From NCBI RefSeq assembly GCF_000243415.2, contig NZ_KI912270.1, positions 3,534,001-3,598,000 of the forward strand: a stretch of 64,000 bases of DNA. The letters run 5' to 3'. This document shows positions 12,333-64,000 of this stretch, one piece after another (position 1 is the first letter of the stretch; each line of letters opens with the position of its first letter). The DNA is from Mycolicibacterium tusciae JS617. Its GTDB lineage: Bacteria; Actinomycetota; Actinomycetes; Mycobacteriales; Mycobacteriaceae. The notes beneath the pieces were generated by a model. It saw only the letters and a list, made by a program, of their open reading frames with translations. It was not told the DNA's origin and did not search any database. Made by a program: the position numbers and the translations under genes.

Positions 12333-12734
12333 GTGACGATAAGTACTTCCCGGGTTTTTCGACCCGATCCCGAATCTGTCGGCAGACGCGAAGTTCACCA
12401 CCGTGCGGTGTTCACGGCTCACCGTGACGCACCGGCGACGGTCACCGTCGTTGTCGAGGGCGAGATCGACGCGTCCAACAGCCGTGAACTCGCCGGCTAC
12501 GTCCAGCGCCATATCGTAGGCGCGGAGCATGTCATCCTCGACCTGAGGCTGGTGGATTTTCTGGCCACCGCCGGTTTCGCCGCACTGCACAACATCAACG
12601 TGATCTGTTGCGGAAGCGACGCCACGTGGGTGTTGCAGGCGGGCAGACAGGTCCGTCGTCTCCTGGCGATCTGCGATCCGGACGCTGCCCTGCCGCTCGA
12701 GAAGGCGCCGCCACTGCTCACCGCAGTTCAGTAA
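12333..12734 (+). CDS. STAS-domain (anti-anti-sigma-like) protein
   Basis: The 133-residue protein is a single STAS domain: VTVVVEGEIDASNSRELAGY, then HVILDLRLVDFLATAGFAAL. This fold is used by anti-sigma-factor antagonists such as SpoIIAA or RsbV. In SpoIIAA the regulated serine is the second Ser of DSSGLG. Here the aligned segment reads ATAG, so that serine is replaced by Ala and a Thr sits one place earlier; phosphoregulation may differ or be absent. The GTG start follows a CAGGAGG ribosome site. No anti-sigma kinase gene is adjacent. It is not part of the Rv0409-Rv0410 neighbourhood as I know it, so it may be a lineage-specific insertion. Confidence 0.8.
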   Translation: MTISTSRVFRPDPESVGRREVHHRAVFTAHRDAPATVTVVVEGEIDASNSRELAGYVQRHIVGAEHVILDLRLVDFLATAGFAALHNINVICCGSDATWVLQAGRQVRRLLAICDPDAALPLEKAPPLLTAVQ

Positions 12735-12780
12735 CCACCAAGACCACGCCGAGGTAACGGAAGAACCGCCGCACCAATGT

Positions 12781-12804
12781 GCGCTATAGCGCTAAAGTAG
12801 CGCT
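12781..12804 (+). promoter_or_regulatory. vapBC promoter-operator with nested palindromes
   Basis: GCGCTATAGCGC (12781-12792) is a perfect palindrome. It overlaps a second perfect inverted repeat, AGCGCTA-AAG-TAGCGCT (12788-12804), which ends at the ATG. The -10 box TAAAGT (12793-12798) ends six bases before the ATG at 12805, so the transcript is probably leaderless. Binding of a VapB-VapC complex here would cover the promoter; autoregulation is inferred. Confidence 0.75.
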
Positions 12805-13041
12805 ATGCCGACAATTCAGGTCCGGGAGATCCCCGAAGACGTGTACGAGGTGATTCGTAAGCGTGCTCGCACCGCCGGCCGGTCGATCCAGTCCTACATG
12901 CGGGACTGGATCATTGACTTCGCAGTCAGTCCGACGACCGAAGAGGCGCTCGCAGCGATGGAGGCCGCGCTGGAGGCGAGCGACACAAACGGGGCAACAA
13001 GGCAGTCGATCCTGGCCGACCTTGCTGCGGACCGGCGGTGA
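12805..13041 (+). CDS. vapB: VapB-type antitoxin (ribbon-helix-helix, FitA-like)
   Basis: The 78-residue protein begins MPTIQVREIPEDVYEVIRKR and continues AGRSIQSYMRDWI, the N-terminal ribbon-helix-helix of FitA-type antitoxins. The C-terminal tail (ATRQSILADLAADRR) would neutralise the PIN toxin. It is the first gene of a two-gene operon with a 4-base overlap to vapC, and a palindromic operator sits directly in front of it. Confidence 0.88.
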   Translation: MPTIQVREIPEDVYEVIRKRARTAGRSIQSYMRDWIIDFAVSPTTEEALAAMEAALEASDTNGATRQSILADLAADRR

Positions 13042-13436
13042 CTGACCACGTCATCGACGCGTCCGCCCTCGTGTTCGCGCTGATCGGCAAGTCGGCGCCC
13101 GCCGCTACCCTGCGGGCTCAACTGGCAGGCATGCGCCGGCACGCCCCACATCTGATCGACGCCGAGATGGGCAATGTGTTGCGCCGCCACGAACGGGCCG
13201 GCCATATCAGCGGTACCGAAGCCGACACCGCGCTGCGGGTAGCGGGGCGCCTCGTCGACCATCGCTATGCCCACGTTGGTCCGCTCGCGAAAGGGGCGTG
13301 GAGCCTGCGGCATAGCCTCAGCTTTTACGACGCGCTCTACGTCGCTCTTGCCAGCAACCTCGGCGTTCCCTTGCTTACCGCCGACATCCGGCTCAGCCGA
13401 GCACCCGATCTCCCATGCCGGACCGAACTCGTCTGA
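13038..13436 (+). CDS. vapC: VapC-type PIN-domain ribonuclease toxin
   Basis: The 132-residue PIN domain has all four expected acidic metal ligands: Asp7 (HVIDASAL), Glu43 (LIDAEMGNVL), Asp98 (SFYDALYVAL) and Asp116 (LLTADIRLS). VapC toxins cut specific RNAs, often tRNAs, when not held by VapB. The GTG start overlaps the vapB stop. The target RNA cannot be told from the sequence. The gene ends six bases from the convergent ackA stop. Confidence 0.9.
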   Translation: MTDHVIDASALVFALIGKSAPAATLRAQLAGMRRHAPHLIDAEMGNVLRRHERAGHISGTEADTALRVAGRLVDHRYAHVGPLAKGAWSLRHSLSFYDALYVALASNLGVPLLTADIRLSRAPDLPCRTELV

Positions 13437-13442
13437 CACGTC

Positions 13443-14567
13443 CTAGGAACTCAGCACCGTCATGCAATCGCGAGCGATCGCCAGTTCCTCGTCGGTGGGT
13501 ATCACCAAGACGGTCGTTGCCGAGTTGTCCGCCGAGATTCGTCGCGCCACGTTGCTCCGCTCGGCGTTGAGCTGCTCGTCGAGTTCGATTCCCAGCGCGG
13601 ACATCCCGCTCAGCGCGTCGCGGCGGACAACGGCGTCGTTCTCTCCGACACCCGCGGTGAAGGTGATGACATCGGCCGACCCGAGCACGGCCAGGTACGC
13701 CCCGATGTACTTGCGCAACCGGTGGATGTAGACGTCATAGGCCAATTGCGCTGCTGTGTCACCGGATTCGATGCGCTGGCGGACCACCCGGAAGTCGATC
13801 TCGCCACCGAGGCCGAGCATTCCGGCGCGACGGTTAAGCATCGACTCGATGTCCTCGACGCCCATTTTGGCGGTACGCCAGAGGTAGGTGATGACGCCCG
13901 GGTCGATATCGCCGGAACGGGTGCCCATCACCAGGCCCTCCATCGGCGTCAGACCCATCGACGTATCCACCGGCCGCCCACCCGCGATCGCCGACGCCGA
14001 GGCCCCGTTGCCGAGATGCAGCACGATCTGGCGCAGCGAATCCAGAGGTGCATCGAGGAATAGGGCGGCCTGCTCGCTGACGTACTGGTGCGATGTGCCG
14101 TGGAATCCGTACCGTCGGATCTTCCATTGTGCGGCGATGTCGCGATCGATGGCGTAGGTCGCCGCGGCGGGAGGCAGGTCGTGGAAGAAGGCGGTGTCGA
14201 ACACCGCGATGTGCGGAAGATCGGGAAGCGCCTTGCGGGCCACCTCGATACCCAGCAGCGCAGGCGGATTATGTAGCGGCGCAAGAGAAGAAAGCTCGTC
14301 GAGCTTGGCGATGAGCGCGTCGTCGACGAGCGTGGGCTCGTACAGGTCGGGCCCGCCGTGCACCACCCGGTGCCCGACGGCAACCAGTCCGGCCATGTCG
14401 TCGGCCAACTCGTCGAACACCACCTGCAACGCCGCGGCGTGGTCGGGAATCTCGCCTTCCCCGATCCGCTCGACGATGCCATCAGCCATCGTGTCACCCG
14501 AATCCGCTTCCACCACGGCGTATTTCAACGAGGACGAACCCGAGTTCACCACCAAAACGCGACTCAT
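13443..14567 (-). CDS. ackA: Acetate kinase AckA
   Basis: AckA interconverts acetyl phosphate plus ADP and acetate plus ATP. The 374-residue sequence has [15 protein letters not shown] at the N-terminus, GHRVVHGG, the catalytic Asp in [58 protein letters not shown] and FTAGVGEN near the end. It overlaps pta by four bases, so the pair is a coupled operon. The order pknG-ackA-pta is that of M. tuberculosis Rv0410c-Rv0408, with the STAS and VapBC genes inserted here. Confidence 0.97.
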
Positions 14568-54406: not shown

Positions 54407-57400
54407 TTAGTTCGTGGCACTCGTACGACGCGCCGCTTCCGCAAAGCGCGGCGCCATGTCCTCCATCTGCTCGATGACGAGCTTGATGGCGGCAGGCTGC
54501 CTGTCAGGCGGGTACTTGTACTTCACCAAGAGCCGCTTGATCGAAGAACGCAGCTTGGCACGCACGTCGTCCCGCACCGTCCAGTCCGTCTTGGTGTCCC
54601 GCTGCATGACCCCGACCAGTTCGCGGGCGATCTGCGCCAGCACGTCTTCCCCCTGGAACTCGACCGCGGATTCGTTCTGCGCGACGGCGTCGTAGAAGGC
54701 CAGCTCGTCATGCGTGAGCGGCGGGGTGAACGCCGTGCCGCGGTTGCCTTCCGCGGCCACTTCCTTGGCCATCTCAACGAGCTCGGCGATAACCTCGGCC
54801 GAGGTCAGCTGCTGGTTGGTATAGCGCCGCATCAGTTCGGAAACGCGCTCCGAAAACGCCCGCTGCCGCACCAGGTTGTTCTTCGTCGCGCGGGCCGCCT
54901 CCTCGGTGATCACCGCCCTCAGGGCCTCGATGGCCAGATGCGGGTTGTTCGACGAGGTTGCCTTCGCCTCGAACTCCGGGCCGAGTTCCGACAGCGACGG
55001 CTTGGGCAGCCCGGCAGCGTCGTAGATGTCGACGATGCCATCGGAGGCGGTCGAGTCGTAGACGAGTGCGGCGAGCATCCGCTTGATCTCTTCGGGGACG
55101 GGCTTACCGGACGCCTGACGCTCCTGGGCATCGAACTTGGCCATCCACACCCGGACCTCTTCGTAGAACTTCACGGTGGGGCGCAGCTTGTCGAGCGTCT
55201 GGCCGCCGGCGCACAGCGCCCAAGCGCGCGACAGCTGATTGGCCAGCGTGCGGAAGCGCTCGCCGAGGGTGACCTCGTCTTCACCGACCTGGTTGCCGGG
55301 CGTCGCAGGCGACCGCAGATGGTCCGTCAAACCCACTGCCGCCTTCATCCAGCCGTGCGGCAGAGCAACTTTGGAGCGCCAGTCGAAGCCTTCGCACAGG
55401 TTGTCCAGCTGGGCAACGAGCGTCTCGGTGAGCGCGACGGCTTCGCCGATGTTCTTGCCGACCGGCTTGGTGTCGCGGTCGGACTGGGTGTACTCGGCGA
55501 GCGCTTTGTTGAGGTTCTCGACCAACGGCGCATACGCGACCAACAGGCCGTTGGGCTTCTGTCGGAAGGTGCGGTTCACGCGCGCCAGCGTCTGCATCAG
55601 CAGGGCGCCCTTGAGTGGGCGGTCGAGGTAGAGGGTATGCAGCGGTGGCGCGTCGAACCCCGTCAGCATCATGTCCTTCACGAGCACGATCTGCAGTTCG
55701 TCGTCGGGGTCGCGCAGCCGCTTCTGGATCACCTTGTTCTGAGCGTCGCGGCGCACGTGGTTGGCCACCCGTCCTTGATCCTGTGCGGTGCCCGAGTAGA
55801 CGACCTTGACGACGCCCTTGTCGACGGCGCCGTCGTGCCATTCCGGCCGCAGCTTGATGAGTTCCTCGTAGAGGTTGGCGCAGATCTCGCGGGTGGCCCC
55901 GACGATGAACGCCTTGCCGGGCGTCGAGATGAACTTGCGCATCTCCTTCGAGCGACGCTCCCAGTGTTCGACGATGTTGCTGGCCAACGCGGCCAGTCGG
56001 TCCGGCGCACCGTAGACCGCGTTGATGACGGCGACGGACTTCTCGATCTGGTCCCGTTCGGTGTCGTCGAGCCCGGAGGTGGCCTCGTCGGCGGCCTTGT
56101 CGAGGTCGTCCTCGGTGACCCCGTGCGCCAACGTCACCTTGATCAGCCGCGGCTCGAAATAGACCGGCACCGTGGCCTTGTCATCCACGGCGCGGGTGAG
56201 GTCGTAGACGTCGATGTCGGGGCCGAAGACGTCGCGGGTGTCGCGGTCGGCCTCGGAGATTGGGGTGCCGGTGAACGCGATGAATGTGGCGTTCGGCAGT
56301 GCGTCGCGGAGGTGGCGGGCGTAGCCGTCGAGGTCGTCGTAGTGGCTGCGGTGGGCTTCGTCGACGATGACAATGACGCTGCGCCGGTCGGTCACCAGCG
56401 GATGGTCGGCGCCGGATTTCCGTTCGGCCTCGGTGAGGCTGAACTTCTGCAGCGTCGTGAAGTAGATGCCACCGGTGGTGCGGTTGGACAGTTCGTCGCG
56501 CAGTTTCGCCCGCGTGGTCACCTTCACCGGGGACTCCTTAAGCAGCAGCGACCTGTTGAACGTCTCGTACAGTTGGCCGTCGAGGTCCTTGCGGTCAGTA
56601 ACGACGACGATGGTCGGGTTCTTCAACTTCGGCTGCTGTGCAACGAGGTTGGTGTAGAGCTCCATCTCCATCGACTTGCCCGAGCCCTGGGTGTGCCAGA
56701 CGACGCCGGCCTTGCCGTTGCGCTCGGCGGCGATCACGGTGGAGCCGACGGCCTTGGTGACCGCAAAGTACTGGTGTGGCTTGGCGATTCGCTTGGTCAG
56801 CCCATCGTCGGAGTCGAACGCGGTGAAGTTGCGCAGCAGTTGCAGGAAGCGCTCCGGGTTGAACAGCCCCTCGATCAGGAACTCGAGTTCGGTGCCCAGA
56901 TGCACGTCGTCGAGCGGCTTTCCGAACGTGACGGGTTTGCCGTCGTCATCGACGTTCCAGGGCGCAAAGTGTTCCAGCGGAGTGAATGGGGTGCCGTACC
57001 GCGCGGTGATGCCGTCGCTGATGACGTTGAGTACGGCGAAGCGGAACGCCAACGGGAACTCGCGCAGATAAGTGGCGAACTGCGCATGCGCGCTGGGCAA
57101 GTCGGCGTTCTTGGAGCCGGCCTGCTTCAGTTCGAAGAAGGCGACCGGCAGGCCGTTGAGGTAAAGCACGATGTCGAATCGGCGGTCGTGTTCGCTCGAA
57201 CGGATGGTGACCTGCTGAACTGCCAGCAGCTCGTTCTCCTCCGGCCGGTGCCCGATGAGGCGGATTGTGGGCGTCTGCTCGATACCGTCAGAGTCGATGT
57301 AGCTGAGGCCGCGGTAGCCGTCGACCAGATAGTCGTGCATGCGGTGGTTCTCGGTGAGTGCGTCTTGGGAGGACGGTTGCAGGATCGCCGCGCGTGCCTG

Positions 57401-57601
57401 GTCGATGTATTCGGCTGGCACGTCGGGGTTGAGTTCGCGCATCTTGGCCAGCATTCGGTCCGGAAGTTCCAGTTCGCCCCAGGAGGTGCGTCCGCGCTGG
57501 ACGCCGGGCGCGATCGCAGAACCGTTGAGCGGCAACCACTCTTGTTCGGCAAGTGCTTCGAGTGCGATCTGTTCCCATTCGGCTTCGCTGAATTCGCTCA
57601 C
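54407..57601 (-). CDS. hsdR: Type I restriction endonuclease subunit R (HsdR)
   Basis: The 1064-residue motor/nuclease subunit has a PD-(D/E)xK nuclease near the N-terminus (Asp143, Glu157, Lys159 in RRFDIVLY...FFELK), Walker A TQGSGKS (304-310), DEAH (414-417), FTGTPI and the motif-VI-like QTLARVNRTF. A long C-terminal helical domain would bind the methylase core. With HsdM and HsdS it cuts unmodified DNA after ATP-driven translocation. Its ATG overlaps the YhcG-type stop by four bases. It is the last gene of the defence operon. Confidence 0.95.
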   Translation of the reverse strand: MSEFSEAEWEQIALEALAEQEWLPLNGSAIAPGVQRGRTSWGELELPDRMLAKMRELNPDVPAEYIDQARAAILQPSSQDALTENHRMHDYLVDGYRGLSYIDSDGIEQTPTIRLIGHRPEENELLAVQQVTIRSSEHDRRFDIVLYLNGLPVAFFELKQAGSKNADLPSAHAQFATYLREFPLAFRFAVLNVISDGITARYGTPFTPLEHFAPWNVDDDGKPVTFGKPLDDVHLGTELEFLIEGLFNPERFLQLLRNFTAFDSDDGLTKRIAKPHQYFAVTKAVGSTVIAAERNGKAGVVWHTQGSGKSMEMELYTNLVAQQPKLKNPTIVVVTDRKDLDGQLYETFNRSLLLKESPVKVTTRAKLRDELSNRTTGGIYFTTLQKFSLTEAERKSGADHPLVTDRRSVIVIVDEAHRSHYDDLDGYARHLRDALPNATFIAFTGTPISEADRDTRDVFGPDIDVYDLTRAVDDKATVPVYFEPRLIKVTLAHGVTEDDLDKAADEATSGLDDTERDQIEKSVAVINAVYGAPDRLAALASNIVEHWERRSKEMRKFISTPGKAFIVGATREICANLYEELIKLRPEWHDGAVDKGVVKVVYSGTAQDQGRVANHVRRDAQNKVIQKRLRDPDDELQIVLVKDMMLTGFDAPPLHTLYLDRPLKGALLMQTLARVNRTFRQKPNGLLVAYAPLVENLNKALAEYTQSDRDTKPVGKNIGEAVALTETLVAQLDNLCEGFDWRSKVALPHGWMKAAVGLTDHLRSPATPGNQVGEDEVTLGERFRTLANQLSRAWALCAGGQTLDKLRPTVKFYEEVRVWMAKFDAQERQASGKPVPEEIKRMLAALVYDSTASDGIVDIYDAAGLPKPSLSELGPEFEAKATSSNNPHLAIEALRAVITEEAARATKNNLVRQRAFSERVSELMRRYTNQQLTSAEVIAELVEMAKEVAAEGNRGTAFTPPLTHDELAFYDAVAQNESAVEFQGEDVLAQIARELVGVMQRDTKTDWTVRDDVRAKLRSSIKRLLVKYKYPPDRQPAAIKLVIEQMEDMAPRFAEAARRTSATN

Positions 57602-58710
57602 GATTTCCCCTCATTGCCTGGTTCGTCGGCGAGTTCGGCTTCCAGTTCCTCGACGGTCGGCAGACTGGATTCGAGTTCGGCGGGCAGGCTTTCCGTGATA
57701 GCGGTCTTCCACTCCGCGACGCCAATCGGCGCGGTGTAGCCGCGCAGCGCGTACTCGGCTACGACGTTGTTCTTCGTCTTGCACAGCAACAGGCCGATGG
57801 TCGGGCCGTCGTCGGCGTGGCGCAGCACATCGTCTGCGGCGGCCATGTAGGTGCCGAGCTGTCCGAGGTAGCTCGGGTCGAAATCCCCGACCTTGAGCTC
57901 GATCACCACGAAGCAGCGCAGGCGGAGGTGGTAGAACAGCAGGTCAGCGTAGAAGTCGGCAGCTCCGATTTCCAGGTGCACCTGCCTGCCGACGAACGCG
58001 AAGCCCTGGCCGAGTTCGAGCAGAAACTTCTCGACGTGCACGGTCAAGGCGAGTTCGAGATCGCGCTCGCGCCGGATGTCGGCGTTGCCGACGAAGTCGA
58101 ACAGATACGGGTCGCGAGTGGACTGCTGGGCGAGATCCGAATCCGGCGGCGGCAACGTCCGCGCGAAGTTGGTGATGGCCTTCCCGGCCCGTTGGTGGAA
58201 CCGACCTTCGATGTGATGGACCAAAACATCGCGGCTCCAGCCGTGCTCCACTGACGCTTGGGCATACCAGAGGCGCAGGTCAGCATCACCCAGCTTGTCG
58301 AGTAGCGCGACGTTATGACGCCAGGGTAATTGTGCAACGCTGCGTTGCACAATTTCGGCGTCGGGCCACGCTGCGGCAAATGCGCGCATGTACTTGAGGT
58401 TGCGCGGCGAGAATCCCGACGTCCCCGGAAACCGCTTCCGCAGATCTGCCGACAGTCGGTCGATGACGCGCGCGCCCCAGCCCTCCGCATCCTGGCGCGC
58501 CAGGATCTCCTTGCCCACCGCCCAATAGGTGGCGACGAGTTCCTGGTTGGCTGCCGTGATCGCGCGCTGGCGACCTGTGTGGACGCAATCGGAGATGGCG
58601 TCGAGGAGGTCGGGATACCATTCTGGCGTGGAAGCCCGCGCGAGCGCGGTCGGGAACGCGATTTCGGCGCCCTCTCGATTCACCGGACGCTTGGAATCAT
58701 CCTGACTCAT
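57598..58710 (-). CDS. YhcG/DUF1016-type PDDEXK nuclease
   Basis: The 370-residue protein has an N-terminal helical DUF1016 region (about 30-180: AANQELVATYWAVGKEIL, FSPRNLKYMRAF, LPWRHNVALLDKL, WSRDVLVHHIEGRFH) and a C-terminal PD-(D/E)xK nuclease (Asp256 in ADFYADLLFY, Glu271 and Lys273 in VVIELK). YhcG-like genes are frequent companions of type I restriction systems. It is coupled to hsdR by a 4-base overlap and overlaps the nucleotidase gene by 14 bases, so it belongs to the same unit. Confidence 0.9.
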   Translation of the reverse strand: MSQDDSKRPVNREGAEIAFPTALARASTPEWYPDLLDAISDCVHTGRQRAITAANQELVATYWAVGKEILARQDAEGWGARVIDRLSADLRKRFPGTSGFSPRNLKYMRAFAAAWPDAEIVQRSVAQLPWRHNVALLDKLGDADLRLWYAQASVEHGWSRDVLVHHIEGRFHQRAGKAITNFARTLPPPDSDLAQQSTRDPYLFDFVGNADIRRERDLELALTVHVEKFLLELGQGFAFVGRQVHLEIGAADFYADLLFYHLRLRCFVVIELKVGDFDPSYLGQLGTYMAAADDVLRHADDGPTIGLLLCKTKNNVVAEYALRGYTAPIGVAEWKTAITESLPAELESSLPTVEELEAELADEPGNEGKS

Positions 58711-59740
58711 CGTCTATCCCGTTCGAGGGTTCGCCTGGCACCAGGACGTCGGCAACGTCTCCGCCCGGCGCGAATCCAATATCAACCACACCTGTTGCGC
58801 CGACATTTGGCCTCATCTCATTCGCAACGCCATACGGAATATGCACTCCTGCAATGTATTCGATCGCATCATCAAGATGGGCTTGTTGGTCGTCGAAGAA
58901 GATGTGAGGGCGCAAGACTTCGAGCACCGTCACCTTCTCGATGCCACCGAGGAAGAACGCATCATTCACATTCACTCCCCATTCCCGTAGCGAGCGCACC
59001 GCGCGTTCATGGGCTGGCGCATTTCGCGCCGTGATCAAGGAAATCCTTAGCCGCGGTTCGTAGGACGGATCGTCCGACTTGCGTTGGTCTTCGATCGTTT
59101 GAATGCGATTGAGATCTTCAAGCAACGGCTTGAGCAGGCCCGGGGCGAGCGGTACCTTCCTGTTAGAAGCCTCATGTTCGAGATACTGCGCTAACTCTTC
59201 GGACTCGTTGTAAACACGCTCCGACTCATCGCTTGCTAGTACACCGTCGAAGTCAAACGCGACCCGGAGCGAAAGATCACCGGAATCATACGAAGCCGAC
59301 GACGGCAAGACGTGCCCCGCGGGTAGTCCTACAGCAATGGCCGCGTCGACATCTGACCGGTTACCCGATAGAAACAACGACATGCTGAATGCGCGGATGT
59401 AGTCGTAGGGAGCCTGCCCCTGCGTAAACACGGCTCGACTGATCGGCAACTTATGGGCCTGTATCGAGCGCATCACCCTGAGTCCGGTCATTGGGTCGTT
59501 GTGCGACAACACGATCACCTCCACCAACGGATCAGCGGGCCTGAGATCGTTGAGGCTGAGCAAGCGATGAATGAACGGAAAAGCTACACCAGCGCTCAAG
59601 GTTTCGTCGATGCGCTCGTCTTGGTACGTCCTATACATCGCCTCTCCGTGCGTGCGGAAGTACGCATCGGATTCTCCAAGATCGAATAGTGCGCTCGAAG
59701 CAACGCCGACCACCAGACGGTCGTCGAGCCGGTAGGCCAT
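58697..59740 (-). CDS. Cytosolic 5'-nucleotidase (NT5C1/PF06189-like) within the restriction operon
   Basis: The 347-residue protein fits the NT5C1-type 5'-nucleotidase family. It shows VGVASSALFDLGESD, VEVIVLSHNDPMTGLRVMRS, SRAVFTQGQAPYDYIRAFSMSLFLS, DVDAAIAVGLPAGHVL and the HAD-like AFDFDGVLASDESE, with FFDDQQAHLD later. Such enzymes dephosphorylate nucleoside monophosphates. It is adjacent to hsdS with no gap and overlaps the YhcG-type gene by 14 bases, so it is made with the restriction system. A role in lowering nucleotides during phage infection is an inference. Confidence 0.85.
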   Translation of the reverse strand: MAYRLDDRLVVGVASSALFDLGESDAYFRTHGEAMYRTYQDERIDETLSAGVAFPFIHRLLSLNDLRPADPLVEVIVLSHNDPMTGLRVMRSIQAHKLPISRAVFTQGQAPYDYIRAFSMSLFLSGNRSDVDAAIAVGLPAGHVLPSSASYDSGDLSLRVAFDFDGVLASDESERVYNESEELAQYLEHEASNRKVPLAPGLLKPLLEDLNRIQTIEDQRKSDDPSYEPRLRISLITARNAPAHERAVRSLREWGVNVNDAFFLGGIEKVTVLEVLRPHIFFDDQQAHLDDAIEYIAGVHIPYGVANEMRPNVGATGVVDIGFAPGGDVADVLVPGEPSNGIDDESG

Positions 59741-60991
59741 CTAGACCACGCTCCGAATGACATCTTCCGCTTCTCCAACAACGATCTTTCCGGACATGAG
59801 AAGGGGCAGAAGTTCATCACGGGTACGGACCAAACGCTCGTTCTCGACACGGCTGGCTTCGAACGCAGCGCGCAGGTTCCACTGCACCTTCCCCTGGCGG
59901 CGCTGCTCTTCGATCGACGGCAACGGAATTACGAGGGATCGGATGTCGCGAAGGCTTATGTAGGGCGCCATGTCGCTCTTGTACATGAGGGTGGACGTCT
60001 GCCGCTGAAGGTCGCTGCCCCGAAACCAGGCACCCAGGTAGTCGCGGTCTACTTGCCCATCATCCTTCACCCGGAAAAAGCACACTTGCGGGCTGTAGAC
60101 AACACGCTCTACGGCGTCCGCGACGACGGCCACTCGTCCGACGCTGCCCTTGGTAGTCAGCACGACGTCCCCAGGCATCGACGCCTTTGACCCGATCTGG
60201 CGTGAATAGTCCAGTGACACATAGTCCTGCCCGGCCGGGAACAGGTACGAGTCGCGTACATCGCCCGCGCGCAGAATCCGCAAACCCGGCTGCCCATGCT
60301 CTGACTTCTTAGTGCGATAGCCATCGCTGAACTCAATTGCTGAGCTGTCCGCAAGCTCCCCAATCGTTGTTGCAGCGCCCTCGATTCGGGCGGCAGCGTG
60401 CACAAACAGTTGATCGCCGAGTTCCAGCGCAGCGTCCGCGACGCGCTCATTCGAGGCGATCTGGTCGTCAAGGGAACCGAGGAGCTTGGCAATGGCACGC
60501 TGACTACCAATCCGGGGAACGCTCAGCGGTACCGCCGCCAGGATCGCCGTGTTGAGGTTCAACATCGTTGCACCAACGGCGTGCCTGGATATCCAGCGAC
60601 GGACTGGCCGAGCGCCGAGCGCGTACGAAACGAACGCAGCGTCATACTTCGTCGCGTCCGGGATTCGGACTCGTAGACAACCCGTTCCACAGAGCCAGCC
60701 TTGGTTCTCGGCTCGAACAAGTGCACGCCGTTCAACGTCCCCACGCCGGGAGTAGACAATGTCGCCTTCACGTAGCGTGTACCGCGACAGCCGCTTGACG
60801 TCCTTGTCAGAGACCCGCGCAATTCCGTCGATGACAATTCGATTGTCGCCGATGTTCTGTGGCATGACGCTTGGTACGCCCTGCGCAACGTAGTCACTGG
60901 CATGTAACTGAGAACCAAATGGACCTGTTTGAATGTCGCCTCCAGACTCTCTACAGATGGCGCCGAGAGTCGTAGCGCTCCACTCACCCAT
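59741..60991 (-). CDS. hsdS: Type I restriction specificity subunit HsdS
   Basis: HsdS recognises the DNA target for both methylation and cleavage. The 416-residue protein has two target-recognition domains, each followed by a helical conserved region: TRD1 (about 1-165) ends in GSQRAIAKLLGSLDDQIASNERV, and TRD2 (about 195-370) ends in SIEEQRRQGKVQWNLRAAFEASRVENERL. The start at 60991 overlaps hsdM by 8 bases. Recognition sequence cannot be read by eye. Confidence 0.92.
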   Translation of the reverse strand: MGEWSATTLGAICRESGGDIQTGPFGSQLHASDYVAQGVPSVMPQNIGDNRIVIDGIARVSDKDVKRLSRYTLREGDIVYSRRGDVERRALVRAENQGWLCGTGCLRVRIPDATKYDAAFVSYALGARPVRRWISRHAVGATMLNLNTAILAAVPLSVPRIGSQRAIAKLLGSLDDQIASNERVADAALELGDQLFVHAAARIEGAATTIGELADSSAIEFSDGYRTKKSEHGQPGLRILRAGDVRDSYLFPAGQDYVSLDYSRQIGSKASMPGDVVLTTKGSVGRVAVVADAVERVVYSPQVCFFRVKDDGQVDRDYLGAWFRGSDLQRQTSTLMYKSDMAPYISLRDIRSLVIPLPSIEEQRRQGKVQWNLRAAFEASRVENERLVRTRDELLPLLMSGKIVVGEAEDVIRSVV

Positions 60992-62609
60992 CGATCCGCT
61001 CCAACTGCTCCCGAACCACTTTCTCCAGCCGCGCCGACTCATCGAACGCCGCAAGCAGTTCCACCTTCAACCGAGCGATCTTCTCGTCGATCGGCTCGGC
61101 GTCGTCCTCGACGGCCGCAGCTCCGACGTACCGCCCTGGCGTCAGCGCGTAGTCGGCTGCCTTGATCTCCGCCAGTGTGGACGACTTGCAGAAGCCCGGA
61201 ACATCCTCGTAGACAAGGCCCTTTGCCTCCGCCGATTTGGACCCCCGCCAGGCGTGGAAAGTGTCCCCGATCTTGACGACGTCCTCGTTTGTTAGGGCCC
61301 GCTCGGCCCGGTCCACCATGTAGCCGAGATCGCGGGCGTCGATGAAGAGCACCTGACCCGAGCGGTCGACCGACCCGTGCTTGCCCGCCGTCTTGTCCTT
61401 GGCGAAGAACCACACGCACACCGGGATCCCGGTGCTGCGGAACAGCTGAGTCGGCAAGGCGATCATGCACGACACCAGGTCGGCCTCGACAATCTGACCG
61501 CGAATCTGGCCCTCCCCGTTGGAGTTCGACGACATCGACCCATTGGCCATCACCACGCCTGCCCGACCACCCGGCGCCAGCTTGTACAGGATGTGTTGTA
61601 TCCAGGCGTAGTTCGCGTTGTTGGCCGGCGGCACACCGAACCGCCACCGTGGGTCCTCCTCGTTGCGCGACCAGTCCTTGATGTTGAACGGCGGGTTGGC
61701 CAGCACGTAATCCATTTGCACGTCGGCGTGCTGGTCGCGGGCGAATGTGTCGCCCCACCGCGCGCCGAGTCCCTTGTTGTCGATGCCGTGGATGGCCAAG
61801 TTCATCTTGGCCATCCGCCAGGTCTCCTCGATGCTCTCCTGGCCGTACACGGCGATGTCCTTGGGATCGCCGGCGTGCTCGTGGATGAATTTCTCGGTCT
61901 GCACGAACATGCCGCCCGATCCGCAGCACGGGTCGTACACCCGGCCGCGGGAAGGCTCGAGAACCTCGACGATCACCCTGACCACGCTTGGCGGAGTGAA
62001 GAACTCGCCGCCCCGCTTACCCTCCGCGCGTGCGAAGTTCCCCAGGAAGTACTCGTACACCTCACCCATCAGGTCGCGCGCCCGGCCGTCGCCTTGGCGA
62101 CTGAACCGCGCACTGTTGAACAAGTCGAGCAGTTCGCCAAGTCGGCGTTGGTCGATGTTGTCCTTGTTGTACAACCGCGGCAGCGTGGCCTGCAGCGTGG
62201 GGTTGGCCTTCATCACGGCGTCCATCGCCTCGTCGATGAGCTGGCCGACGTTCTTGGCCGGTTCCCCGCCGACGGCCGGGCGCCCCTTCGCGTTCTCCGC
62301 CAGGAACTTCCATCGTGCCTCCGGCGGCACGACGAAGACGCCGTAGCCCTGATACTCCTCAGGATCCTCGATCAGGTCCTCGATCTGGCCCTCGTCGAGA
62401 CCGTCCCCCTGGAGCTCGGCGCGGATCGCGGCGCGGCGCTCGTCGTAGGCGTCTGAGACGTACTTCAGGAAGACCAGGCCAAGGATGACGTCCTTGTACT
62501 GATTCGCCGACAAGGACCCGCGTAGCTTGTCGGCGGCCTTCCACAACGTGTCCTTGAGCTCCTTCATCGTCGAAGGCGCCTGCGGTTCGAGCTTCTTCCT
62601 CGGTGGCAT
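60984..62609 (-). CDS. hsdM: Type I restriction DNA adenine methylase HsdM
   Basis: HsdM methylates adenine at the HsdS-defined site. The 541-residue enzyme has the N-terminal helical HsdM_N domain (MKELKDTLWKAADKLRGSL, DVILGLVFLKYVSDAYDER), GEFFTP (201-206), the SAM motif DPCCGSGG (226-233) and the catalytic NPPF (305-308), with a C-terminal helical tail. It starts with ATG at 62609, 11 bases after the methylase-like gene, and overlaps hsdS. Confidence 0.96.
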   Translation of the reverse strand: MPPRKKLEPQAPSTMKELKDTLWKAADKLRGSLSANQYKDVILGLVFLKYVSDAYDERRAAIRAELQGDGLDEGQIEDLIEDPEEYQGYGVFVVPPEARWKFLAENAKGRPAVGGEPAKNVGQLIDEAMDAVMKANPTLQATLPRLYNKDNIDQRRLGELLDLFNSARFSRQGDGRARDLMGEVYEYFLGNFARAEGKRGGEFFTPPSVVRVIVEVLEPSRGRVYDPCCGSGGMFVQTEKFIHEHAGDPKDIAVYGQESIEETWRMAKMNLAIHGIDNKGLGARWGDTFARDQHADVQMDYVLANPPFNIKDWSRNEEDPRWRFGVPPANNANYAWIQHILYKLAPGGRAGVVMANGSMSSNSNGEGQIRGQIVEADLVSCMIALPTQLFRSTGIPVCVWFFAKDKTAGKHGSVDRSGQVLFIDARDLGYMVDRAERALTNEDVVKIGDTFHAWRGSKSAEAKGLVYEDVPGFCKSSTLAEIKAADYALTPGRYVGAAAVEDDAEPIDEKIARLKVELLAAFDESARLEKVVREQLERIDG

Positions 62610-62620
62610 CGATGCCCTCT

Positions 62621-64000
62621 CTATCGTGGCGCCGCGGCGACGCCGGGCGTGGTCGGCTGCGCGTCGAGCGTCAGGGCACCCGCGGCCACCCCGTCGATCA
62701 ACGCCTTCTTCAAGTCCTTGGCGGCCTCGGCACGTCGCAGCGCTTCGGCTTCGTACCGTTCGACGTCATCGAGCGCGACCTCCAACCGTCCGGACTCCTC
62801 GCGCGTCATCACGGGCACGCTCCAGGTATGCCATTCGGAGCCGGCCGCGCTCGCGTCGTTGATGACGGTGGCCAACAGACGCGGCCCGAAATCTGCAGTA
62901 GCGGTGAGCCGTAGCACTCGCGCTGGCGACGCGACCATCGCTCCGCCCTCGGCGTCGACCCACGCGCGGGGTTGAGGCTTCTCCACAAAGACGACGTCGC
63001 CCGGGTCGGTGCGCACCGCGCGCGGGTACCATCGTTCGGCATCGAACGGGTCCAGGACGATGTCGCCGGCGACCTCGATCGGCAGCACCCGCACGGTCCC
63101 GTCCGGCGATGCATGTACGGGATCGATCCGGCGGCCCCGCATCACAACCACGTGCTTCTGGTCGTGCAGTTCACCAAGTGAACGGCTGCGCAGACGAACC
63201 CGACCCGGCGAAGTGTCCACCAGGACGTCCAAAGGCTCCAGCAGTGCGGTCGTCGTCAGCGTCGCCGAATGCACTCGGTGCAGGTGACCTGCCGGATCTG
63301 AGGAACGCAGCACCGCTGCCTGGACTCCTCGCGGCACGACAGGTCCCGACGCCAGGACACTGGCCAGCTCGATCCGGCGCATGTACCGATACGCCCGGCC
63401 CTCGCTCTGCGACAGCGCGCCCGCAACATCGGCGGCCAGATCGCGGAGCTCGGGCGGGCCAGCGGCGGCGAGGTCGGCCACCCAGGGGCGTTGCGCCTCT
63501 GCCCCACCCAGGCACACCCACACCGCCAGGTTCTGGCGGTGGGCCTCCCGCCACATCCCGCGCGGAAGTCGAATCGCCGCAACGACATTACCGACGCGCA
63601 GTACGTCGGCCCGACGGCCCTGCAGCTCGCCCGCCAGTGTGTCGGTGAGCGCCGCTGCCGGCCCGACGAGCACTGCGGCGTCACCGGGTTCCAGCCGGAC
63701 CACCAGGTCGTCGGCGCGGTCGAGCACGTCGGCGTGGGCGAGTCCGATCGCCGAGGCGAACTCGGCGGCGCGGCTTCGGCGATCGCCGATGCCGACGCCC
63801 ATGACGATGCCGCGCCTCAACACCGCCCGGTCAGCCGACACGAGCGACAGCCCTGATGCCGCCGCCACCTCCAGCGACACCGAGGTGCCGTCGGTGCGCA
63901 ACCCGAGGCCGTCGGAGCCCATGAACACCACACACGCGGCGGTGACGTCGCTCAAGAGCTTCACCGCGTCCGCGGTGAGTTCACGCTGCGCCAGCTCGCG
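62621..64000 (-). CDS. N-6 DNA methylase-like protein, C-terminal part (partial)
   Basis: The frame is open to the window edge; an internal GTG at 63964 is not needed as a start. The visible 459 or so residues include VVAAIRLPRGMWREAHRQNLAVWVCLGGAE, which resembles the post-NPPF part of actinobacterial N-6 methylase-like proteins. A region that could bind DNA and a charged C-terminal helix (EALRRAEAAKDLKKALIDG) follow. No NPPF or SAM motif is inside the window, so catalytic status is unknown. It lies 11 bases before hsdM on the same strand and so looks like an added first gene of the defence operon. Family call is tentative. Confidence 0.5.
   Translation of the reverse strand, partial: RELAQRELTADAVKLLSDVTAACVVFMGSDGLGLRTDGTSVSLEVAAASGLSLVSADRAVLRRGIVMGVGIGDRRSRAAEFASAIGLAHADVLDRADDLVVRLEPGDAAVLVGPAAALTDTLAGELQGRRADVLRVGNVVAAIRLPRGMWREAHRQNLAVWVCLGGAEAQRPWVADLAAAGPPELRDLAADVAGALSQSEGRAYRYMRRIELASVLASGPVVPRGVQAAVLRSSDPAGHLHRVHSATLTTTALLEPLDVLVDTSPGRVRLRSRSLGELHDQKHVVVMRGRRIDPVHASPDGTVRVLPIEVAGDIVLDPFDAERWYPRAVRTDPGDVVFVEKPQPRAWVDAEGGAMVASPARVLRLTATADFGPRLLATVINDASAAGSEWHTWSVPVMTREESGRLEVALDDVERYEAEALRRAEAAKDLKKALIDGVAAGALTLDAQPTTPGVAAAPR

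Follow-up and report, generated by a model that had tools for sequence, protein, structure and literature searches.

The window analysed here, a stretch of 64,000 nucleotides from Mycolicibacterium tusciae JS617 (contig NZ_KI912270.1), encodes a type I restriction-modification (RM) operon that contains, between hsdS and hsdR, a gene for a 5'-nucleotidase of the family PF06189, which we label NT5 throughout. NT5 is tightly coupled to its operon neighbours, retains its catalytic residues, recurs beside defence genes and shows patchy gain and loss. We give an even chance to the proposal that NT5 serves as an optional, translationally coupled defence accessory that would drain (deoxy)nucleoside monophosphates ((d)NMPs) during infection.

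A nucleotidase gene coupled to the genes of a type I RM operon

The five complete genes of the operon, with their lengths in amino acids (aa), are as follows.

60984..62609, minus strand: hsdM, type I modification subunit, 541 aa; Pfam N6_Mtase (391 bits) and HsdM_N (90 bits)
59741..60991, minus strand: hsdS, specificity subunit, 416 aa; Pfam Methylase_S in two stretches; overlaps hsdM by 8 bases
58697..59740, minus strand: NT5, PF06189 5'-nucleotidase, 347 aa; Pfam 395 bits, PADLOC PDC-S08 437 bits
57598..58710, minus strand: DUF1016/YhcG PDDEXK nuclease, 370 aa; DUF1016_N 143 bits, YhcG_C 197 bits, PADLOC PDC-S02 478 bits
54407..57601, minus strand: hsdR, restriction/translocase subunit, 1064 aa, GTG start; Pfam HSDR_N, SWI2_SNF2 and T1RH-like_C

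The original prediction had described these five genes as packed on one strand, and both their coordinates and the Pfam matches agree with that description. The combination of HsdM_N with N6_Mtase, a two-part HsdS and an HsdR with nuclease and translocase domains is that of a type I RM system. HsdR also matches TIGR00348 (475 bits, above the cut-off) and the PADLOC REase_I model (796 bits). The hsdM translation contains DPCCGSGG and NPPF, which we take to be its motifs. The two Methylase_S stretches of HsdS correspond to two target-recognition regions, and its start is the ATG at 60991, although the mechanical list of open reading frames (ORFs) reaches upstream to a TTG at 61054.

The hsdM/hsdS, hsdS/NT5, NT5/YhcG and YhcG/hsdR junctions measure -8, 0, -14 and -4 bases, exactly as predicted: the NT5 start codon immediately follows the hsdS stop, YhcG overlaps NT5 by 14 bases, and hsdR overlaps YhcG by 4. 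The coupling of NT5 to hsdS extends to related operons. The junction is 0 in the window, L011, L212, L214/L026 and L219/L027 and -1 in L222, L224/L084 and L225, with NT5 proteins that are 75-99.7% identical pairwise among the 8 complete loci checked. Such close contact between hsdS and NT5, seen in every one of the 8 complete loci checked, is not a product of chance. Downstream, the -14 junction with YhcG recurs in L011 and L027. In L026, the NT5 frame ends in what is left of YhcG, a C-terminal tail sharing 4 bases with hsdR; L212 and L214/L026 retain only a YhcG remnant, and L224/L084 has NT5 without YhcG.

NT5 is predicted to be an active nucleotidase

The PF06189 match spans residues 1-308 of the 347 in NT5 and positions 1-302 of the 302 in the profile, and its 395 bits compare with a cut-off of 28.2. 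We assessed residue conservation in an alignment of 82 NT5 relatives from which fragments shorter than 250 aa had been dropped. The residues below are those that we take, from general knowledge of the superfamily, to be HAD motifs I-IV (D163/D165, T237, K269 and D283/D284).

59246..59254, minus strand: motif I, D163-F164-D165; D163 and D165 in 82/82
59030..59032, minus strand: motif II, T237; 82/82
58934..58936, minus strand: motif III, K269; 82/82
58889..58894, minus strand: motif IV, D283-D284; D284 in 82/82, D283 as D in 78 and E in 4

Since these residues are intact and PF06189 is also the family listed for human NT5C1A, NT5 probably works as a cytosolic HAD 5'-nucleotidase, with (d)NMPs as its substrates. 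The likeness drawn here to NT5C1A, a HAD-related enzyme assigned EC 3.1.3.5 (PMC5098729), is at the level of the Pfam family. A sequence comparison of NT5 with PDB chains gave no convincing match (best E 0.32), and a PHROG search returned no family matching it. In the Pfam scan, PF06189 is the single domain, with no sensor domain visible. A 927-aa NT5 fusion (L017/L092) was rejected as an artefact, because the extra part, judged by eye, resembles an out-of-frame translation of high-GC DNA.

NT5 genes are linked to type I RM loci

We detected PF06189 matches in 6 of 301 genomes of the family (one a fragment), in 11 of 396 genomes of the phylum (9 above the cut-off) and in 12 of 396 genomes of the genus. 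The genus sample was an even draw and was used for counts from both the NT5 and the HsdR side. In nine of the 12 genus genomes with NT5 (G000, G224, G692, where NT5 is cut by the contig end, G699, G788, G814, G861, G953 and G985), the gene immediately after NT5 in the operon position is an hsdR of the window lineage, which is defined by at least 72% HsdR identity and comprises 24 loci in the 396 genus genomes. For the other three (G844, G927 and G940), no window-lineage hsd gene was present in the stretch fetched. PF06189 nucleotidases are thus linked non-randomly to type I RM.

The site that NT5 occupies is a variable slot, as the contents of the hsdS-hsdR gap differ among HsdR relatives from nearly nothing to several kilobases. 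We surveyed 20 HsdR relatives from the family sample, in 13 of which hsdS was visible, and none of the 20 carries NT5. The slot is nearly empty in L146, L148 and L149. It holds YhcG in L162, a YhcG remnant in L144, SLFN_AlbA_2 in L143, GmrSD with Transposase_31 in L145, and DUF6508 with AbiEii in L153. In L151, L154, L155, L156 and L159 it contains 5-8 kb of ORFs mostly without an assigned family; these gap ORFs, like the neighbouring genes of some NT5 loci below, were called by a greedy ORF picker, which can err. The hsdS-hsdR site has been described as a potential recombination hotspot, with reference to DarTG2 and another pair (PMC12255303). Base composition at third codon positions (GC3) in the window is 64% for NT5 and 67% for hsdS versus 87% for hsdM and hsdR, and across 8 loci it is 65-72% for NT5 versus 77-88% for hsdM/hsdR. 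The low GC3 of NT5 would fit acquisition, and hsdS and NT5, which share it, may have been exchanged together.

The NT5 tree (82 rows) indicates that the slot was entered more than once. One clade (100/96) unites five RM-embedded proteins from mycobacteria. The NT5 of a Micrococcaceae locus (L036) occupies the same slot and groups with an Arthrobacter protein that is not RM-linked (99/98), which on this tree makes it a second, separate gain in the hsdS-hsdR gap. The L036 gap also contains two N-terminal HsdR fragments, as if left by earlier insertions.

NT5 proteins of Escherichia coli (L130 type) lie far from the mycobacterial RM-embedded clade on the tree. Matches were found in 96 genomes, and in 13 of 13 contexts viewed (from 40 listed rows) annotated type I hsd genes or fragments lay within 9 kb of NT5; in H56 and H58 they are largely fragments. 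These contexts are integrase islands at leuX-, pheV/U-, selC- and thrW-type tRNA sites, or lie elsewhere or close to HsdR. In several islands, hsdR-hsdM-hsdS are followed by a gene that changes from one island to another, then by NT5, a gene for a phosphorothioate-dependent endonuclease, an integrase and a tRNA; the changing gene may encode Dsr1, a SIR2 protein, an ATPase with HNH or a product without assigned function. Islands with hsdR-M-S, changing cargo, NT5 and an integrase include L136, L142, L163, L165, L166 and L168. Because E. coli W (NC_017635) carries a related NT5 (ECW_RS23705) beside hsdRMS, the proposed role of NT5 is testable in a laboratory strain.

The genes directly before NT5 in L136 (6852-8859), L139 (6156-7898), L140 (6967-7944) and L142 (6236-7600) have no Pfam match, and those of L136, L140 and L142 gave no PADLOC match either. 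Among 10 of 46 plasmid records viewed, hsd genes lie beside NT5 only in H17; in H22, NT5 sits between Hhe and AbiH genes, and in H10, which carries an NT5 of another clade, near fosA10. Three viral (prophage-like) contigs, L169, L170 and L171, each have NT5 at the contig start.

NT5 also occurs beside other defence systems and is a catalogued candidate

We scanned with PADLOC 17 of 51 genes flanking NT5, at 16 loci, the results being examples and not rates. Four loci are clearly defence-like (L008, L010, L071 and L091, the last being the weakest), three are ambiguous (L009, L047 and L054) and nine gave no match. Two arrangements stand out.

L010 9525-18297 and L172 54-15518: NT5 heading a BREX type 2 operon, with a 4-base overlap with pglW
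L071 3050-14374: type IIG/DISARM-like locus with NT5 and GmrSD

In L010, from the family of the window, NT5 and pglW share 4 bases, and the genes after them are pglX, pglY/brxC, pglZ, brxD and brxHI; from pglW on, all give strong PADLOC matches, which together make up a complete BREX type 2 set. L071 (Propionibacteriaceae) encodes, in a row, a SNF2-type helicase, a type IIG/DrmMI-like methyltransferase (read as two ORFs in different frames), NT5, a GmrSD protein and a DruE-like helicase, and GmrSD overlaps NT5 by 4. In L091, a weaker match, NT5 overlaps an AAA/OLD-like ATPase gene by 4. We rejected the idea that NT5 is specific to type I RM, given its presence in the BREX type 2 and type IIG/GmrSD loci and the many homologues without a defence neighbour.

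The original prediction knew of no description of such a nucleotidase inside a type I system. PADLOC-DB v2, however, already lists the NT5 family as PDC-S08, a single-gene phage defence candidate, and DUF1016 as PDC-S02. The PDC-S08 model matches the window NT5 (437 bits, residues 1-308), its E. coli relatives (444 and 417) and the BREX-linked NT5 (457). PDC entries are putative systems without experimental validation, proposed by 'guilt-by-embedding' (PMC10855318; their source is a 2024 preprint by Payne et al., as cited in PMC12255303), and the position of the window NT5 inside hsdMS-R, a known defence system, is an embedding of this kind. A literature search, with subscription papers largely outside its reach, found no functional study of a PDC-S08 nucleotidase in RM. 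The family is therefore known as a defence candidate, and its role within an RM operon is putative.

Among the closest known systems are type I RM with embedded DarTG2 (the RRDM island, PMC12255303) and PrrC in EcoprrI (PMC12707154), in which an extra gene is likewise lodged in the hsdS-hsdR gap or elsewhere in the hsd locus. Those systems carry an ADP-ribosylating toxin or an anticodon nuclease where the window carries a nucleotidase, and Pfam and PADLOC detected none of the RM-guard toxin or antitoxin families PrrC, RloC and DarTG in any of the five operon proteins that the window encodes in full. Chp, a CARF-HAD protein of type III CRISPR-Cas, also places a HAD phosphatase in defence and dephosphorylates dATP, ATP and IMP; cA4 activates Chp, which also has CARF and transmembrane parts (PMC12715507), whereas NT5 has one Pfam domain and no sensor. 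As in the dCTP deaminase and dGTPase defences, NT5 would lower the supply of precursors for phage DNA, although the enzyme families differ: the Pfam scan of NT5 gave no deaminase or HD dGTPase domain, only PF06189.

A proposed role in draining nucleotides during infection

In the mechanism that we propose, NT5, carried in the hsdS-hsdR gap, would be translated in step with hsdS. The dNMPs freed by degradation of host or restricted phage DNA would be a feedstock for phage dNTPs; by converting them to nucleosides, NT5 would hold back phage DNA synthesis at the time when HsdR cuts unmodified DNA. Control could lie in expression together with the RM genes, and activation of NT5 by HsdR would not be required. 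From the genomic data we infer the substrate, the effect on phage and this control through co-expression. There is precedent in CARF-HAD phosphatases, enzymes that deplete both ATP and IMP and confer phage defence (PMC12715507), and in Clover, a nucleotide-depleting defence (PMC12265719). If NT5 is an active partner, type I RM would join the defences that hit the nucleotide supply of phages as well as their DNA, and PDC-S08, an uncharacterised catalogue entry, would gain a testable mechanism.

Several observations weigh against this role. The original prediction had considered the nucleotidase fixed in the type I system, and counting from HsdR did not bear this out. One of the 24 loci of the window lineage (L179) is cut before the NT5 position becomes visible and was excluded from the count; NT5 is present in 9 of the 23 assessable loci and absent from 14. 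Its presence is also unclustered on the HsdR tree, requiring 7 changes against a shuffled mean of 7.8 (150 of 500 shuffles were as low). As a check, the prediction had suggested a search for a conserved neighbourhood of PF06189 genes with hsd genes. The genus (9 of 12) and the E. coli contexts (13 of 13) agree with such a neighbourhood, but in a wider set of 76 NT5 loci (63 fetched and 13 from whole genomes, a few genomes possibly being in both), a tblastn search using the Hsd proteins of the window and of E. coli matched in only 9, and most of the remaining contexts have nothing to do with hsd. Many homologues have ordinary genes as neighbours (hydrogenase, arabinofuranosidase, T2SS F, MFS), and those of, for example, Demequina and Streptomyces have no hsd neighbour. 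From the literature, Pseudomonas aeruginosa strains with PDC-S08 are divided 50/50 between phage-resistant and susceptible (PMC10855318), and the toxicity of a CARF-HAD effector survives substitutions of conserved HAD residues (PMC12715507).

As NT5 is missing from most loci of the lineage and scattered on the HsdR tree, restriction is independent of it, and a role as an essential subunit is unlikely. This count does not change our estimate for a defence accessory, because the linkage seen from the NT5 side is strong in the same genus sample. YhcG is commoner in the 24 loci (intact in 14, a remnant in 6, absent from 4), and a full YhcG occurs without NT5 in at least 7 assessable loci. Because YhcG is the commoner of the two and the presence of NT5 is scattered on the tree, YhcG looks like the older tenant of the slot and NT5 like an optional one. 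An earlier reading, in which NT5 would be a fixed member of its HsdR clade and persist longer than YhcG, was rejected after the HsdR-first search; its single clade was a biased sample in which 5 of 6 NT5 loci (all but the window) had been collected through the NT5 search. In the family sample, only 2 of the 30 best HsdR loci carry NT5. The identities of NT5 and HsdR are moderately correlated (Spearman 0.52, compared with 0.76 for HsdM and HsdR; 28 pairs of 8 loci, the pairs not being independent), a pattern that would fit inheritance with losses plus some exchange. The HsdR lineage is a natural experiment, in which close relatives of one operon exist with (9) and without (14) NT5.

Alternative roles for NT5

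The gains and losses within the lineage, the many homologues that are solitary or beside ordinary genes, and the tendency of variable gaps to accumulate genes, as in several relatives with 4-8 kb of mostly unassigned ORFs, could also mean that NT5 is a passenger, a nucleotidase of general salvage or house-cleaning that is carried along in the variable gap of a mobile operon and has no defence role. We regard this as unlikely, though with a chance that deserves to be kept in view. Drift would hardly bring 9 of 12 genus NT5 genes into one slot with conserved junctions, and the separate gain in the same slot (L036), like the association of NT5 with type I RM in E. coli and with BREX type 2, speaks for more than chance transport. 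PADLOC, moreover, proposed the family as a defence candidate independently.

The identity of the partners bears on another possibility. T4-like, SPO1-like and Z-genome phages make modified nucleotides at the dNMP stage. If NT5 preferred modified dNMPs (e.g. hydroxymethyl-dCMP or 2-amino-dAMP), it would keep phage DNA cleavable by the methylation-based systems linked to it. The clearest operon partners either rely on phage DNA being unmodified or recognise its modification: type I RM, BREX type 2, the type IIG-like methyltransferase with GmrSD, and the phosphorothioate-dependent endonuclease of the E. coli islands. A HAD nucleotidase, YjjG, is also known to act on non-canonical nucleotides in vivo (PMC12715507). 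Relatives that neighbour an ATPase gene (L091) or genes of ordinary kinds have no special fit to such a guard of restriction, which we consider improbable; the broader form, in which PF06189 nucleotidases would be portable anti-anti-restriction partners of type I RM, BREX or type IIG that act on the modified dNMP pool, seems to us just as doubtful.

The co-translation of NT5 with the YhcG nuclease and HsdR in the window, L011, L027, L222 and L225 could reflect a protective function, in which NT5 (with YhcG) would clear the products of restricted DNA and spare the host a dNMP imbalance after HsdR cleavage, not starve the phage. Mammalian cytosolic nucleotidases do balance dNTP pools (PMC5098729). 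Most loci of the lineage nevertheless restrict without NT5, and NT5 also occurs with BREX. BREX has been reported not to cleave DNA, and we hold a clean-up function to be quite improbable.

Finally, NT5 could destroy a nucleotide signal or its product and so keep a partner such as YhcG silent, as the 14-base overlap of the two genes in three loci might suggest; with NT5 found without YhcG, YhcG found without NT5, and no signal-making enzyme in the operon by Pfam scan, this is very improbable.

The first gene of the operon and a divergent neighbour

The operon starts one gene before hsdM, a gene that the original prediction overlooked.

62621..64000, minus strand: first operon gene, 3' part; the 624-aa gene is complete at L007 10621-12495, which corresponds to window 62621 to about 64495

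This gene has an HTH-like N-terminus, ends 11 bases ahead of hsdM and exits the window. The 624-aa protein matched no Pfam family and, among the PHROGs, showed a weak resemblance to a DNA-binding protein (E 4.5e-4). It accompanies the window-type hsdM lineage both with and without NT5.

Just past the window and divergent from the operon, L007 encodes a 511-aa protein (12538-14073, plus strand) with no Pfam family. The same gene adjoins the RM lineage with and without NT5 (L011, L026, L027, L084, L143, L144 and L146, of which L143, L144 and L146 are relatives lacking NT5), and the protein is a possible further component of this RM lineage.

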